Source: Sphingosinicella sp. BN140058
GTDB taxonomy: Bacteria > Pseudomonadota > Alphaproteobacteria > Sphingomonadales > Sphingomonadaceae
Reading direction: 5' to 3'
DNA length: 64,000 bases
Assembly (NCBI RefSeq): GCF_004135585.1
Contig: NZ_CP035501.1
Location: 3,667,501 to 3,731,500 of the forward strand
The notes below the pieces were generated by a model. The model was not told the origin of the DNA, did not search any database, and worked only from the letters and a program-made list of their open reading frames with translations. The translations under genes were made by a program, and so were the position numbers. The stretch's first letter is position 1, and every line of letters begins with the position of its first letter. Below are positions 7,404-52,313 of the stretch, one piece after another.

Positions 7404-7439
7404 ATGCAGGTGTGTCGCAATTTGGAGGCGGGGCAAGGG

Positions 7440-8219
7440 GTGAACCTACAATCGGCAATCCTGATGGCCGAGCCGGACGCTCCCGACCAGCCTCCGGCAT
7501 CGGCCTATGCGGCACCGCGACCCACGCTCGCCGTCGCGGGATGGGAGCGCGGGTTGCCCTACGGAGCGACTCAGCGGGTCAACCTCCCGGCGCTGGTCGC
7601 CTCCGCAACAATCGTATCCCTTTTTCTCGGCGCCTTTCTGACCCTCAACACCCTGCCCGATCGGAAGCCCGAGCTTCGTCCGACCGTGGTCGAACTCCTC
7701 TCGCTGGAGTCGCCACCGCCGCCCAGCGTGCCGGAACCCCGGCGGGCCCCTGATGTGCCGGTTGCGGCGCAGCCTGAGCAGGCGGTAGCCGCGCCGCAGG
7801 TCGCGCCCCCATTGGTGGCGCCGAGCTCGCCGCTTCCAATCGCCTCGCCGATCGTCGCGTCGGCGGTCCCGGCCGGTCCTGCTCCGGCTCCGGCCCCTGC
7901 GACTCCGGCACCGGCGCCGGCGCCGCACAAACCGGTGGAGGATGGTGGCCTCGGCGCCCGCATGCTCTCGGCGCCGCCGCCCAAATATCCGCTCGAATCG
8001 CGTCGCAAGCGCGAGCAGGGGATCGTCGCGCTGTCTGTCCTGCTCGGCACCGACGGACGCGTGGAAACGCTCTCGGTGTCGTCGAGCAGCGGCTTCGATC
8101 GGCTCGACAAGGCAGCGCTGAAGGCGGTGCGGGAGTGGCGCTGGGCGCCTTTGGTCCGCAACGGCGCGCCGGTCCAGGTCCGCGGCATCGTCACCATTCC
8201 GTTCCAGCTGCGCGGCTGA
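7440..8219 (+). CDS. tonB: Energy transducer TonB
   Basis: A 259-aa inner-membrane protein that couples proton motive force to the outer-membrane receptor. A single membrane anchor lies near residues 40-60 ([20 protein letters not shown]). A long Pro/Ala-rich periplasmic spacer follows (around residues 75-160), then a C-terminal TonB domain with the conserved [14 protein letters not shown] and [17 protein letters not shown] at 7440, with GGAGG upstream, gives the best start; longer in-frame starts exist. No exbB or exbD is nearby, so those subunits must be encoded elsewhere. Its place between the receptor and piuC suggests a dedicated TonB. Confidence 0.85.
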
Positions 8220-8226
8220 GCTTGCG

Positions 8227-8910
8227 ATGATGATCGCCATTCCGGGCGTGCTCGATGCCGCCCAGCTGACGCATTTCCGCGAAACGCTCTCCGCGGCCTC
8301 GTGGCAGGACGGCAATGCGACCTCGGGCAGCCAGTCGGCGCTGGCCAAACGCAATCAGCAGCTTGCGGAGACGTCGGCGGCCGCGCGCGAACTCGGCGGG
8401 GCCATCCTCGACAACCTCGGCCGCTCCGCTCTGTTCATCGCGGCGGCGCTGCCGCTCAAGGTCTTTCCGCCCTTGTTCAACCGCTACGAAGGGGGCGGAC
8501 GGTTCGACACCCATGTCGACAATGCGATCCGCTATCAGCGCGGAACCGATTTCCGACTCCGCAGCGATCTGTCGGCAACCCTCTTCCTCAGCGACCCTGA
8601 GGATTATGACGGCGGCGAGCTCGTCGTCGAAGACCATTTCGGCACCCACCGCGTCAAGCTCCCGGCCGGCGACATGGTGCTCTACCCCGCCTCCAGCCTG
8701 CACCACGTCACGCCGGTCACCCGCGGTGCCCGCGTCGCGTCCTTCTTCTGGATCCAGTCGATGGTTCGCGACGAGGGCCAGCGGCGCGCCCTGTTCGATC
8801 TCGACACATCGGTGCAGGCCCTGGCGGGAGAGCTCGGCCAGGACCACAAGGAGGTGGTTCGCCTCACGGGCCTTTATCACAACCTGCTGCGCCGCTGGGC
8901 GGACGCCTGA
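8227..8910 (+). CDS. piuC: PKHD-type Fe(II)/2-oxoglutarate hydroxylase (PiuC/YbiX)
   Basis: A 227-aa member of the PiuC/YbiX family, Fe(II)- and 2-oxoglutarate-dependent dioxygenases encoded beside Fiu/PiuA-type receptors and thought to act on catechol siderophores or their breakdown. The iron ligands are visible: the H-x-D pair in [10 protein letters not shown] (around residue 97), the distal His in [12 protein letters not shown] (around residue 159), and the Arg in TRG that binds 2-oxoglutarate. The length is normal. It starts 7 bp after tonB, so all three genes form one operon. Its 3' end has been partly copied into a decayed duplicate at 9169-9260. Confidence 0.9.
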
Positions 8911-8976
8911 GGCGGGTGAGCGCGCTAATCCTACAGACGCATTAGCGAGCCCTTCCCGAATACCTGTGCACAACAC

Positions 8977-9063
8977 CCGTTCGGGCTGAGCCTGTCGAAG
9001 CCCTTCTTTTCTGCCTTTCACCAGAAGAACAAGGAGGGGCTTCGACAAGCTCAGCCCGAACGG
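8977..9063. repeat. Dispersed sphingomonad-type inverted repeat, copy 1
   Basis: The arms CCGTTCGGGCTGAGCCTGTC (from 8977) and its near-perfect complement (ending around 9062) enclose a short AT-rich middle. The arms continue through GAAGCCC. One mismatch in the stem would pair as G-U in RNA. It sits at the convergent ends of piuC and the duplicated junction and could act as a bidirectional terminator. Confidence 0.8.
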
Positions 9064-9180: not shown

Positions 9181-9260
9181 AGACGTCGGTCCGGACCAAA
9201 TAAGGTGGTTCGCCACACCGGCCTGATCGTAAGCTGCTGCGTCGCTGGGCGGACGCCTGA
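9169..9260 (+). pseudogene. Decayed copy of the piuC 3' end
   Basis: It starts GGCCCTGGCGGGAG and ends CGCTGGGCGGACGCCTGA, like the last ~94 bases of piuC (8817-8910). Substitutions and small deletions in between destroy the frame. The offset from the intact copy is about 350-352 bp. The same offset applies to the following repeat element and to the apbE 3' end, so all three were copied together. Confidence 0.75.
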
Positions 9261-9327
9261 GGCGGGTGAGCGCGCTAATCCTACAGACGCATCAGCGGGC
9301 TCTTTCCGAACACGCGTGCACAAACAC

Positions 9328-9412
9328 CCGTTCGGGCTGAGCCTGTCGAAGCCCTTCTTTTGCCTTTCACCAGAAGACAAGGAGGGGCTTCGGCAAGCTC
9401 AGCGCGAAACGG
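9328..9412. repeat. Dispersed inverted repeat, copy 2 (duplicated, degenerate)
   Basis: Same element as at 8977-9063, carried along by the local duplication. The left arm is intact; the right arm has accumulated changes (CGGCAAGCTCAGCGCGAAAC). This fits a copy that lost selection on its hairpin. Confidence 0.75.
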
Positions 9413-9463: not shown

Positions 9464-10366
9464 CTATTCCGCCATCGCCGCCGCAGCCTTGCTCAGCATC
9501 TCGACATGGATCGGGCCGGCCTTGGCGGTGACGAGGGCGGCGACGCCTTTGCGTTCGGCCAGGGCGAGCCCCTCCTCGGGGCCGAGCACGGTGATCGCGG
9601 TCGCCAGAGCGTCCGCGATCATGCAGCTTTCGTGGAGCACCGTCACCGATACGATCTTGTTGTCGACGGGACGCCCGGTGCGCGGATCGAGCGTGTGGGC
9701 GAAGCGCTGCTCGCCCTGCTCGAAATAGCGCCGGTAATCGCCCGACGTGGCGACGGCGAGGCCGTGCAGGGCGATCCGGGTCGGCAGCAGCGCGGACGCC
9801 GGCGGCGCCTCGATGTCGACCCACCAGGGCAGCCCGTCCGCGCGCAGGCCGCGGCCGAGCAACTCGCCGCCGATCTCGACGAGAAAGGACCGCAGCCTGA
9901 AGCCTTCCAGCAGGGCGGCGACTTCGTCGACTGCAAGGCCCTTGGCGATGCCCGACAGATCGAGCTGCAGGCCGCCCGGCTGGCGCAGCCGCCCAGCAAG
10001 CGGATCCGCTTCGAGGCGCTGCCAGCCGCCGTTTTGCCGAGCGGCATCGATCGCAGTCTCGGGCGGCGGCAGCGCTGCCGCAGGGCGCGGGCCGAAGCCC
10101 CAGAGGTCGACCAGCGCTCCGATCGTCGGATCGAAGGCCCCACCTGTCTCTCGTGCCAGCTCGAGGCCGGCGGCAACGACATGGAAGAAGCGGCTTGGCA
10201 CGTCGTGCCAGCTGCCCTCCCGCGCACGGTTGAAGCGCGAGAGCAGCGAACCATCCTGCCAGTGGCTGAGTTCGGCGACGAAAACGTCCAGCAGCGCCTG
10301 GACGCGCCCCTGGAGACCCGCCGGCGCGTCCTGGGCGACGAACTGGATCGACCAGGTCGTGCCCAT
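9464..10366 (-). CDS. apbE: FAD:protein FMN transferase ApbE
   Basis: This enzyme attaches FMN covalently to a Thr or Ser in target proteins exported to or exposed in the periplasm. Seen here: MGTTWSIQF at the N-terminus, GGAFDPTIGALVDLWGF, the DLSGIAKGLAVDEV segment, and the C-terminal HTLDPRTGRPV and the Asp/Ala-rich metal- and FAD-binding stretch ADALATAITV. The only ATG, GTG or TTG in frame after the upstream gene ends is this ATG at 10366. Yet homology-like sequence (VRRPGARIHTLSGE) continues upstream to an ATA codon at 10483 that overlaps the DUF4198 stop as ATAA. The true start may therefore be non-canonical. Last gene of the PepSY-DUF2271-DUF4198-apbE operon. Confidence 0.88.
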   Translation of the reverse strand: MGTTWSIQFVAQDAPAGLQGRVQALLDVFVAELSHWQDGSLLSRFNRAREGSWHDVPSRFFHVVAAGLELARETGGAFDPTIGALVDLWGFGPRPAAALPPPETAIDAARQNGGWQRLEADPLAGRLRQPGGLQLDLSGIAKGLAVDEVAALLEGFRLRSFLVEIGGELLGRGLRADGLPWWVDIEAPPASALLPTRIALHGLAVATSGDYRRYFEQGEQRFAHTLDPRTGRPVDNKIVSVTVLHESCMIADALATAITVLGPEEGLALAERKGVAALVTAKAGPIHVEMLSKAAAAMAE

Positions 10367-10479
10367 CGTCTCGCCCGACAGCGTGTGGATGCGGGCACCG
10401 GGGCGGCGAACGAGGGCGAGCAGATCGACCCGCTGCGGGACGAGGATGCGCGGCGCGTCGGCCGCCGGGGAATGGTCGC

Positions 10480-11391
10480 TTATGGCGTCATAACCTCGAG
10501 AGTCGTGACATAGTTGAATCGGCGACCGCTGACATTTGCAACCGTCGATGTGCCGTCCTGGAAGGTGGCGTTCATCCAGTACAGTCCGGCCGCCGGCCAG
10601 GTTACCGACACTTCGCCGGCTGCATCCGTCTTGGCCACGATCTCGCCCTGCGCGTTGCGGTAGCGCTTCCCGTCGGGGATCAGCCGCACTTCGAGATTGG
10701 CGGCGGGCTTGCCTTCGACCAGGAAGCGGAAGCGGCCGGGTTCGTCGGCGACGAGATCGGCAGGGTGGGTGAGCGGCACCATCTCCAGGCCCTTGCCGGT
10801 CGGCTTGATCTCGCTCGGCTCGCCCAGGGTGACGAAGACTTCGTTGCGGTTCGCAATCTGGGTCAGCTTGACGTCGGTCGCACCTGCGGGAAGTGCGAAA
10901 TCCGGGCCACCCGGCACGAACTTGGCGTTCGCTCCCGGCCGTCCACTCTGGCCCGGTGGCTTGGCTGCCGGGCCGCCGGCACTGGCCGCGCCGGGGGCGC
11001 CCGGCGGACGCATCCCGCCCGGCCCGCCCGGCGGGCGGCCGCCGACACGGTAATCCTCGCCGCCAAGCTTGTAGCTGCCCTGGACGCCCGCATTCTCGAT
11101 CGCGACTCGCCACGTGCCCGGCCTGGTCAGGTGAAGGTCGAAGGTGGAGCGATAACGGCCGGTGATGCCATTCTCGATCCTGGTCTCGCTTCCGTCGGGC
11201 GCGAACGCCTTGACCTGCTCGATGCGGAGCGGCTGGTGGTCGGCGATGAACACGTCGGTAGAGGCGGCGGCATCGAACGAAACCCAGCCATCCTCGCCCG
11301 ACACCGTCGCGGCCGAGGGCTTGATCCACATATTGTGGGCGGCCGCGGGCGCGGCACCGAGCAGCAGAGCCGCGACGATCAGTCTTCTCAT
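10480..11391 (-). CDS. DUF4198 periplasmic protein
   Basis: A 303-aa exported protein. The signal peptide ends at APAAAHNMW, and the mature protein begins HNMWIKPS, the typical His-containing start of DUF4198, a family seen in metal-uptake and siderophore loci. Two beta-rich parts are separated by a Gly/Pro-rich linker (around residues 118-155, GGRPPGGPGGMRPPGAPG) that looks flexible. The C-terminal part (AAGLYWMNATFQDG) resembles an Ig-like carboxypeptidase-regulatory fold. The role is not established; a ligand- or metal-binding partner of the PepSY/DUF2271 reductase is inferred from the operon. Confidence 0.78.
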   Translation of the reverse strand: MRRLIVAALLLGAAPAAAHNMWIKPSAATVSGEDGWVSFDAAASTDVFIADHQPLRIEQVKAFAPDGSETRIENGITGRYRSTFDLHLTRPGTWRVAIENAGVQGSYKLGGEDYRVGGRPPGGPGGMRPPGAPGAASAGGPAAKPPGQSGRPGANAKFVPGGPDFALPAGATDVKLTQIANRNEVFVTLGEPSEIKPTGKGLEMVPLTHPADLVADEPGRFRFLVEGKPAANLEVRLIPDGKRYRNAQGEIVAKTDAAGEVSVTWPAAGLYWMNATFQDGTSTVANVSGRRFNYVTTLEVMTP

Positions 11392-11422
11392 GGACGTGCC
11401 TTTCTACGGACGAATGGCGGCT

Positions 11423-11929
11423 CTACGGACGAATGGCGGCGACGACGGCGCCGAGCTCGGTGGATCCGGATGCGCTGGCCCGCGCGCCCTTGCCGTTCCA
11501 GGTGAAGGGCAGGGTGACGACCTCGCGGCCGCCTTCCTCGCGCGCCGCCTCGACCACGATCCGGTAGGCGCCCGGCGGGAGCGCGCCGAGGTTGAAGCGC
11601 GCGCGCTGCGGGCCCGGCGCGCGGGTGGCGCCGCTGATCCCATTGGCCGGCATCTTCAGGGTGCGACCGCCCTTGCGCCACCAGGCGCGCAGGTCTCGTA
11701 ACCATTTCTGGCCGGCATCCTCGCGATTGTCGGCATCGTACCAGACGGCGAGCGTCCGCGCGGAGGCGCCGGTCGCCGGCTCAAGCCACACGGCGACATA
11801 GGGCTTGTGATACTCCGCGACCTTCAACTGGGGGATGGCGATCGCGATGTCGGCCGTGGCCGCCGCCGCGGGCGAGGCCGCGCCGGTGGCGGCGAGGCCG
11901 GTGATGAGGGTTCGGTGAGAGATCTTCAC
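11423..11929 (-). CDS. DUF2271 periplasmic protein, probable flavinylated subunit
   Basis: A 168-aa protein with a signal peptide ending near AAAATADI. The conserved DUF2271 core follows: KPYVAVWLE, LAVWYDADNREDAGQKWLRD and LRAWWRKGG. Residues 99-102 are SGAT (bases 11624-11635), directly after NGI. This is the form of motif whose Thr receives FMN from ApbE. With apbE two genes downstream, covalent FMN at Thr102 is the natural reading, and the protein probably carries electrons in the periplasm. GTG at 11929 has AGGTGG upstream. It follows the PepSY gene by 8 bp. Confidence 0.8.
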   Translation of the reverse strand: MKISHRTLITGLAATGAASPAAAATADIAIAIPQLKVAEYHKPYVAVWLEPATGASARTLAVWYDADNREDAGQKWLRDLRAWWRKGGRTLKMPANGISGATRAPGPQRARFNLGALPPGAYRIVVEAAREEGGREVVTLPFTWNGKGARASASGSTELGAVVAAIRP

Positions 11930-11937
11930 ATGTCCAC

Positions 11938-12591
11938 CTAATGGATGAAGAGGATGGCGAGGAGGGCGGGGAGCAGCAGGCCGAAGCCGACGATCGGCCA
12001 GGTCGATGGGCGATGCTTGCTGTGCATCTGCAGCAGCAACAGGCCGGTGATCGAGAAGATCAGGCAGGCGACCGCGAACAGGTCGATGAACCACGACCAG
12101 ACCGGGCCGGTGTTGCGGCCCTTGTGGAGGTCGTTGAGATAGGCGATCCAGCCGCGATCGGTGGTCTCGTAGACCGCCTCGCCGCTCGCCCGATCGATCG
12201 TCAGGGTGGCGTCGCCGCCCGGGCGCGGAAGCTCGAGGAAGATCTCCTCCGCCGACCATTCGGCCGGGGTCGCCGGGATCGAGGCGGAGAGCAGCGCCTT
12301 CAACGCCGACCGCGCCGCCTCCGGCAAGGGCGCCTTCTCGCCGTCGCCGATCCTGGCCGAGGCGAGCATGGCGGCGGTCGCCTGATCGAGCGACACCGTC
12401 CTCGTCGCACTCACCGGCTCGGCCGAGATGTCGCCGGCGTGGTTCAGGGTGACTCCGGTGATCGCGAACAGCAGCATTCCCGCCAGGCATGTTGCCGAAC
12501 TGATCCAGTGCCAGCGATGCAGCTGGCGCAGCCAGAAGCCTCGCTTGGATTTGGAATTGGGCTTGGGTTTGATCGGTGTCGCCGCGGTCAT
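11938..12591 (-). CDS. PepSY-associated membrane protein
   Basis: A 217-aa protein with the PepSY_TM layout. A basic cytoplasmic N-terminus with RQLHRWHW precedes a first membrane segment (around residues 30-50, ISSATCLAGMLLFAITGVTL) ending in NHAG. A periplasmic PepSY-like region follows, with TIDRASGEAVYETTDRG, then DLHKGRNTG and two C-terminal membrane segments. The His in LHRWHW and NHAG may bind haem as in related ferric reductases. First gene of the operon with DUF2271, DUF4198 and apbE, so probably the membrane entry point for electrons. A Fur-like site lies 35 bp upstream. Confidence 0.85.
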   Translation of the reverse strand: MTAATPIKPKPNSKSKRGFWLRQLHRWHWISSATCLAGMLLFAITGVTLNHAGDISAEPVSATRTVSLDQATAAMLASARIGDGEKAPLPEAARSALKALLSASIPATPAEWSAEEIFLELPRPGGDATLTIDRASGEAVYETTDRGWIAYLNDLHKGRNTGPVWSWFIDLFAVACLIFSITGLLLLQMHSKHRPSTWPIVGFGLLLPALLAILFIH

Positions 12592-12625
12592 TGCGGCTTG
12601 GGCTAACCGAGCTGCTTTTGATAAT

Positions 12626-12643
12626 CAATCGCAATTGTGATTG
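12626..12643 (-). promoter_or_regulatory. Fur-like palindrome upstream of PepSY operon
   Basis: CAATCGCAATTGTGATTG is an 18-base palindrome with one mismatched pair, within an AT-rich stretch that starts TTTGATAATCAATCG. It lies just upstream of the PepSY start (12591). Together with the Fur box of the receptor gene it suggests joint iron control of both operons. Confidence 0.5.
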
Positions 12644-12694: not shown

Positions 12695-12778
12695 CCGTTC
12701 GGGCTGAGCCCGTCGAAGCCCTCCTTTTGCTTGTGTGCCAAAGATTAAGGAGGGCTTCGACAAGCTCAGCCCGAACGG
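12695..12778. repeat. Dispersed inverted repeat, copy 3
   Basis: Same family as at 8977-9063: the left arm CCGTTCGGGCTGAGCCCGTC and the complementary right arm ending CCCGAACGG at 12778. It sits between the PepSY operon promoter and the end of the DUF2264 gene and separates the iron locus from the polysaccharide locus. Confidence 0.8.
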
Positions 12779-52226: not shown

Positions 52227-52313
52227 CCGTTCGGGCTGAGCCTGTCGAAGCCCTCCTTTTCCTTCTTGCTGAAGAGGAGAAGAGAAAGGCTTCGACAAGC
52301 TCAACCCGAACGG
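52227..52313. repeat. Dispersed inverted repeat, copy 4
   Basis: The arms CCGTTCGGGCTGAGCCTGTC and GCTTCGACAAGCTCAACCCG with a GAAGAGGAGAAGAG-rich middle, between the fused dehydrogenase/hydratase gene and the acyl-CoA dehydrogenase gene. It is the same family as at 8977 and 12695. It could attenuate read-through within the operon. Confidence 0.8.

Follow-up and report, generated by a model that had tools for sequence, protein, structure and literature searches.

Can the four-gene operon in which Sphingosinicella sp. BN140058 encodes a PepSY membrane protein, a DUF2271 protein, a DUF4198 protein and the flavin transferase ApbE be understood as a periplasmic iron reductase, and where would its carrier protein receive the flavin? 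The operon lies in a stretch of 64,000 nucleotides (contig NZ_CP035501.1, positions 3,667,501 to 3,731,500; hereafter the window), for which a sequence-only reading had proposed that siderophore iron is reduced in the periplasm by a carrier with covalently bound flavin mononucleotide (FMN). As a whole, this interpretation is supported in part. Comparison with related loci makes it likely that this is a PepSY-type flavinylation operon reducing periplasmic ferric iron for uptake, a mechanism which is already published (PMC8238504, PMC3751524, PMC12004947; these and the other papers are cited for the portions of their text that were available). The points left for specialists are the place of flavinylation, the reductase missing from Sphingomonadales and the odd start codon of apbE.

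Genes and conserved residues of the operon

The order PepSY-DUF2271-DUF4198-ApbE on the minus strand, with apbE as the last gene, was borne out by Pfam matches which all exceed their cut-offs:

11938-12591, minus strand: PepSY_TM_like_2 protein, 217 residues (PF16357, 255.8 bits against a cut-off of 27)
11423-11929, minus strand: DUF2271 protein, 168 residues, GTG start, likely exported (PF10029, 145.8 bits against 27.3)
11624-11635, minus strand: SGAT flavinylation motif, DUF2271 residues 99-102, FMN expected on Thr102
10480-11391, minus strand: DUF4198 protein, 303 residues (PF10670, 172.0 bits against 34)
10480-10483, minus strand: ATAA overlap of the DUF4198 stop codon TAA with an in-frame ATA, a possible apbE start (CTGA here in 29 related loci)
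9464-10483, minus strand: ApbE, flavin adenine dinucleotide (FAD):protein FMN transferase, first ordinary start codon ATG 10366 (PF02424, 282.8 bits against 25.6)

The interval 10366-12591, first assigned to the operon, leaves nearly all of apbE outside, because it stops at that gene's first ATG. ApbE matched the solved structure 5mgy (E 4.6e-67, 229.8 bits) and remained below the cut-off of the NCBIfam equivalog model PRK10461 (212.1 against 498), while the PepSY protein, which adjoins DUF2271 and ApbE, matched PF03929 at 44.3 bits. The whole genome holds one DUF2271 and two ApbE genes; the second ApbE (83.6 bits; L102:7102-7920, genome C1:1695101-1695841) is divergent, and its MGT motif is likewise preceded by no ordinary start codon.

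In sequenced genomes at least 473 loci were confirmed, and the best 80 of them were analysed; these are near relatives and not independent, and their taxon groups were assigned by hand from record titles. All four genes stand in one order on one strand in 73 of the 80, the other seven comprising five loci cut by contig ends (L017, L036, L063, L066, L071) together with L055 and L091. DUF2271 is present in 6 of 60 relatives, this genome counted, and within the genus only in G015 besides this genome; no DUF2271 relative was found in the viral contigs searched.

The SGAT motif stands exactly where it had been placed and fits the published site definition, [S/T]GA[S/T]. Conservation of its Thr across homologues had been proposed as a check, and the residue is invariant, in 120 of 120 DUF2271 homologues (the best 120 of 3184, aligned) and in 80 of 80 loci. 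The four-mer [ST]GAT occurs in 115 of the 120 homologues (the rest being TGPT in three, TSAT in one and SAAT in one) and in 68 of the 80 loci, where the site reads SGAT in 45, TGAT in 23, TGPT in five, SSAT in three, SAAT in two, and SSPT and TSAT in one each. Covalent, ApbE-dependent FMN on DUF2271 has been shown for the protein of A. ursilacus (PMC8238504). Among solved structures the DUF2271 profile matched only designed and unrelated proteins, and Foldseek with a model of the protein (mean predicted local distance difference test score 74.6) gave no match at E <= 0.001, only C2-like sandwiches with low template modelling scores, which were not used.

The PepSY protein has four putative haem ligands, His28, His51, His156 and His190, kept in 78, 78, 80 and 77 of the 80 loci, respectively. 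The first two frame its first hydrophobic segment and the last two its second, a pattern compatible with a pair of bis-His haems, one at each face of the membrane. FoxB of Pseudomonas, with haem histidines at both membrane faces, and HiuB of Caulobacter, where they have been modelled likewise, show a similar pattern and also belong to the PepSY superfamily, FeoAB being suggested downstream of HiuB; however, both are larger than the PepSY protein here, and no flavinylated carrier is named in the available text (PMC13001220, PMC13038864). Comparison of the PepSY protein with solved structures gave nothing credible from the single sequence and nothing from the profile, which yielded no sequence match to FoxB or HiuB either.

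The DUF4198 protein carries a predicted signal peptide at about residues 1-18, and the mature protein is predicted to begin with His19, after AAA; His19, His52 and His209 are conserved in 77, 78 and 75 of the 80 loci. Its fold matches Zcp (9mhi-9mho, 18-19% identity) and IsDUF4198 (9gcb, 14% identity), the matched proteins having been solved with Cu, Zn, Co and Ni. An N-terminal His after the signal peptide is predicted to be shared with IsDUF4198, whereas the second ligand of the latter, His18 (PMC12537917), has no clear counterpart in the sequence, the next conserved histidines here being His52 and His209.

Fur sites and the receptor neighbourhood

The upstream regions of 76 relatives (the near relative L013 was removed, and L036, L064 and L076 were missed) yielded a palindromic motif, AATGAGAATcATTCTCATT, which we take to be a Fur box. 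Scanned with this motif, the window returned the Fur-like palindrome already noticed before the operon as its second best site, and the neighbouring genes were placed as follows:

12617-12635, no strand assigned: predicted operon Fur box, 26-44 bases ahead of the start codon of PepSY, 19.5 bits
4745-4763, no strand assigned: predicted Fur box ahead of the receptor gene, the window's highest-scoring site with 25.0 bits
7385-7403, no strand assigned: weak Fur-like site before tonB, 10.6 bits
4795-7314, plus strand: Fiu/PiuA-type TonB-dependent receptor (TIGR01783 over cut-off; 5nec, E 4.9e-198)
7410-8219, plus strand: TonB, start uncertain (PF03544, TIGR01352)
8227-8910, plus strand: PKHD-type Fe(II)/2-oxoglutarate dioxygenase, a PiuC/CciO/YbiX relative (PF18331, PF13640; NF003973, 397.5 bits against 336)

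In 60 copies of the window generated by an order-1 Markov model no site reached 19.5 bits, and the fourth site of the window, with 10.4 bits at 8521, lies within the dioxygenase gene. A site of at least 12 bits is found in 67 of the 76 relatives' upstream regions. Elsewhere in the genome, a 21.3-bit site lies directly upstream of feoA and feoB, both named by Pfam. The Fur box predicted in its promoter would place the operon in the Fur regulon; the Caulobacter operon CC3059-3063 is under Fur regulation (PMC3751524), and the same operon has a fitness effect under ethylenediaminetetraacetic acid (EDTA; PMC12004947).

The operon had been described as converging on a Fiu-type receptor, TonB and PiuC. 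The TonB and PKHD dioxygenase genes do face it from the plus strand, as does a TonB-dependent receptor related to Fiu; the receptor is a relative of Fiu and not Fiu itself, because it scores under the cut-off of the Fiu equivalog model (461.1 against 686), and its best solved-structure matches are 5nec, 5fok and 5fp1, followed by E. coli Fiu (6bpm, E 1e-98). A PKHD homologue, upstream or downstream and on either strand, lies within the fetched stretch of at least 38 of the 80 loci, which is a lower bound because some stretches are short. By group, it accompanies the operon in 28 of 38 loci of Sphingomonadales, 5 of 5 of Xanthomonadales, 2 of 23 of Burkholderiales, 0 of 7 of Caulobacterales and 3 of 7 others. 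Of 190 genomes sampled from the class, 10 have DUF2271 and 30 PKHD_C above the respective cut-off, both being present in seven, a co-occurrence with P of about 1e-4 if the two were independent (5e-4 without this genome). As a separate observation, at L023 a further, larger protein (L023:12561-13727), which judging by its N-terminus may be a full-length PepSY protein, is encoded between apbE and the PKHD gene.

Receptor and PKHD dioxygenase pairs as in the window are known as CciT/CciO, Fiu/YbiX and PiuA/PiuC (PMC12004947, PMC12004943), and PepSY has been reported as the second-best neighbour of CciT/CciO, in fewer than 25% of genomes (PMC12004943). The pair of the window differs from these in having a TonB gene in between and a whole reductase operon beside it, and an operon beside such a receptor offers a testable reductase candidate in a sphingomonad.

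Proposed iron reduction, its electron source and the alternatives

Two published systems come close to this operon. The PepSY-like clusters of Meheust et al. 2021 (PMC8238504) combine the same PepSY (PF03929/PF16357) with DUF2271, DUF4198, ApbE and an [S/T]GA[S/T] site, DUF2271 being described as an ApbE substrate; iron reduction was proposed for the PepSY/DUF2271/DUF4198 clusters, and 231 PepSY-like clusters occur with TonB. In contrast to these, the operon here has no nicotinamide adenine dinucleotide (NAD)-binding reductase, its ApbE lacks a clear signal peptide, and the receptor-TonB-PiuC block is convergent. In Caulobacter crescentus (PMC3751524, PMC12004947), CC3059-CC3063 (CCNA_03155-03159) has the same gene order, Fur regulation and link to iron, but it includes a fifth gene, annotated as a sulfite reductase flavoprotein, which is absent here, and the cciT/cciO pair (CCNA_00027-00028) lies away from it. 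The absence of the reductase in Sphingomonadales, the ApbE without a clear signal peptide and the probable CTG start of its gene were not met in the available parts of the literature on such clusters.

The scheme proposed combines what was observed here (the four genes and the order in which they stand, the residues conserved in them, the Fur sites and the occurrence of feoAB) with what is established in relatives, namely DUF2271 flavinylation (PMC8238504) and the Fur control and EDTA fitness of Caulobacter (PMC3751524, PMC12004947), while we infer the direction of electron flow, the donor, the substrate, the role of DUF4198 and the place of flavinylation. Under iron shortage Fur would leave the promoter, and the Fiu/PiuA-type receptor and TonB would import a ferric complex to the periplasm. 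Electrons would move outward through the PepSY protein, whose two putative bis-His haem sites lie near opposite membrane faces, to the covalent FMN on DUF2271 Thr102 and from there to the ferric complex; the resulting Fe2+ would be held by the His-starting DUF4198 protein and enter via FeoB, with ApbE attaching the FMN, possibly in the cytoplasm ahead of DUF2271 export. Iron reduction is favoured because the gene order and the PepSY histidines are kept, Thr102 is invariant, Fur boxes and PKHD linkage are found, and published parallels exist.

Concerning the source of the electrons, a flavodoxin/NAD-binding reductase gene lies downstream of apbE in 34 of the 80 loci. Counting only loci with at least 1.5 kb beyond apbE, it is found in none of 32 Sphingomonadales, 21 of 21 Burkholderiales, 5 of 5 Xanthomonadales, 4 of 6 Caulobacterales and 2 of 5 others; the operon studied here has no such gene after apbE and so departs from the five-gene form of Caulobacter and Burkholderiales. 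A dedicated reductase elsewhere in the genome was considered and rejected, the only relative found being a 614-residue flavodoxin/FAD/NAD protein, i.e. CysJ, encoded between a NIR_SIR gene and genes with PAPS_reduct and GTPase/APS_kinase matches. The candidate electron donors are quinol, CysJ or a diffusible reductase.

Several facts weigh against iron reduction by this operon. Apart from lacking a reductase gene, with the single flavodoxin-domain reductase detected genome-wide lying in a cys operon, it has relatives (L055 and L091) in which SGAT is kept and a reductase gene follows DUF4198 with no apbE in between. Furthermore, of the 10 genomes with DUF2271 in the class sample, only two (this genome and G152) encode it within 10 kb of PKHD, although seven of the ten have both, so that a PKHD linkage which is strong in near relatives becomes loose outside that circle. 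Finally, a solved DUF4198 protein binds nickel, not iron, with a dissociation constant for Ni2+ of 18 nM (PMC12537917). Together with the fold matches to structures containing Cu, Zn, Co and Ni, and with the support of copper enzymes by a PepSY_TM protein in Bordetella (PMC13038864), this nickel affinity speaks for an operon serving another transition metal, in which DUF4198 would be a chaperone for nickel, zinc, copper or cobalt and some other metal complex would be reduced by the flavin carrier. Such a function is unlikely, given the Fur boxes on operon, receptor and feoAB, the adjoining Fiu/PiuA-type receptor, and the iron-dependent expression (PMC3751524) and EDTA phenotype (PMC12004947) in Caulobacter. 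Even less probable, to a degree that makes it a marginal option, is that PepSY acts as an inner-membrane permease for whole ferric siderophores with DUF2271 and DUF4198 as accessories, as has been suggested for PepSY proteins of Alteromonas (PMC7190382): those proteins have 4-8 predicted helices against three in the present type (PMC8238504), and the histidines at the membrane edges and the flavinylation site are conserved.

Where ApbE acts and where its gene begins

Within the iron reductase scheme, the place of flavinylation depends on whether ApbE is exported. Signal peptides were scored by the hydropathy maximum over 12 residues together with charge near the start, which is not a trained predictor, and the lines drawn at 1.4 and 1.8 are our own choice. 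Over the 80 loci, signal-like N-termini at 1.8 were found in 3 of 72 operon ApbEs, 48 of 80 DUF2271 and 72 of 75 DUF4198 proteins, and at 1.4 in 17 of 72, 72 of 80 and 75 of 75, with 2 of 74 ApbEs and 5 of 80 DUF4198 proteins unscored; an earlier variant of the test gave 4 of 71 ApbEs at 1.8, 22 of the 71 being too short or without a start. The ApbE of the window shows no clear signal peptide in this crude hydropathy test and thus departs from the classical exported ApbE, a periplasmic lipoprotein. With an N-terminal hydropathy of 1.37, the window's own DUF2271 falls just below the 1.4 line, so that its export rests on its family. The twin-arginine signal RRx-hydrophobic occurs in the first 25 residues of none of 120 DUF2271 proteins, and in a looser stretch in 11 of 80.

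Ten of the nearest 120 ApbEs, taken with the gene calls of others, score at 1.8, and seven of these are variants of the segment RILVPPALSPLAIA; in our reading all ten would represent a conserved motif and not signal peptides. The motif itself is where 19 of the 120 are annotated to begin. As a control, ApbEs for which our own profile found no DUF2271 nearby scored in 14 of 29 rows at 1.8 and in 19 of 29, counted by eye, at 1.4, a set in which five failing rows (L110, L111, L116, L125, L144) lie on DUF2271-bearing contigs and some rows are duplicates or fragments. ApbEs near DUF2271 were signal-like at 1.8 in 2 of 15 rows, several of them duplicates, and both were ApbE-DUF2271 fusions (L114, L115), which carry a signal peptide by the hydropathy test. 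Among the 80 loci, only the ApbE of Lysobacter chinensis (L092:11383-12429) has a signal peptide that looks genuine.

In the window, apbE has no in-frame ATG, GTG or TTG for 60 codons upstream of ATG 10366, the codon for the M of the MGTTW motif. In 29 of the 33 loci whose DUF4198 ends in a CTGA context the apbE frame runs through the CTG (P about 1e-10 for an expectation of one in three, the loci being taken as independent although they are not). These 29 comprise 26 Sphingomonadales, two Phenylobacterium (L085 and L089, with an ATG directly after the CTG) and one unclassified locus (L052). An R-hydrophobic-P motif follows the CTG within 18 residues in 25 of them, and 16 have no ATG, GTG or TTG before MGT; at L057 and L077 a later start must serve, because a stop interrupts the stretch after the CTG. 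The window and L013 have ATAA at this overlap, and between them the stretch from ATA to MGT is conserved at the protein level, its 28 codons showing 8 silent changes and 6 that replace the amino acid. It is therefore likely, as far as such comparisons can tell, that apbE starts at CTG, here ATA, coupled to the stop of DUF4198, ATG 10366 being a possible alternative; many apbE genes may consequently be annotated too short. A frameshift fusing DUF4198 to ApbE was rejected, no slippery heptamer being seen by eye and other lineages having separate starts.

Since DUF2271 is likely exported and the operon ApbE that would modify it shows no clear signal peptide, flavinylation may precede export, and the simplest reading is that a cytoplasmic ApbE may modify DUF2271 before Sec export. 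ApbE would have lost its signal peptide, with a conserved segment, R-[VI]-L-[VI]-P, at the N-terminus in its place, and would modify the flexible SGAT loop of precursor DUF2271 using cytosolic FAD, the chain crossing the Sec channel already carrying FMN; in Sphingomonadales, translation of apbE would begin at a non-AUG codon, CTG or in this case ATA, that overlaps the stop of DUF4198, and the system would work without a dedicated NAD(P)H reductase. Taken jointly, in-cell flavinylation by an ApbE with the RILVP segment, the non-AUG start and the lack of a dedicated reductase are put forward only tentatively. Cytosolic ApbEs exist, as in Klebsiella with a cytosolic target (PMC12052999); this review was the only source to turn up in a narrow search for ApbEs that lack a signal peptide or are cytosolic, cytoplasmic or intracellular. 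The opposite case, with a prospect not far short of even, is that ApbE is exported by an unrecognised signal, for instance the conserved RILVP segment itself, and that DUF2271 receives its FMN in the periplasm, as classical systems do. In Salmonella, ApbE needs to be located in the periplasm (PMC12052999), and the A. ursilacus ApbE that flavinylates DUF2271, expressed in a signal-peptide-truncated form, is described and hence taken as having a signal peptide (PMC8238504); both observations count against cytoplasmic flavinylation. The 17 operon ApbEs scoring at 1.4 and the ten of the nearest 120 at 1.8 also favour export, which is opposed by the contrast at 1.8 between ApbE and the other two proteins, by the proline-rich nature of the RILVP segment, in which no lipobox was noticed, and by the absence of an ordinary start codon upstream of it in the window's apbE. 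If cytoplasmic action of ApbE on an exported protein were true, it would add a second FMN route, one without FAD export, to the present view of secreted flavoproteins as acquiring FMN outside the cell.

Around the operon, a dispersed inverted repeat, CTTCGACAAGCTCAGCCCGAACG and its complement, flanks the genes at 8978-9062, 9329-9351 and 12696-12777 and recurs at 52228-52312, matching seven times in the window if 3 mismatches are allowed and 111 times in the genome if 2 are, the reversed control giving none. The 3' end of the PKHD gene (8876-8973) is repeated at 9226-9323, 350 bases downstream, over 98 nucleotides with 89% identity, inverted repeat included.

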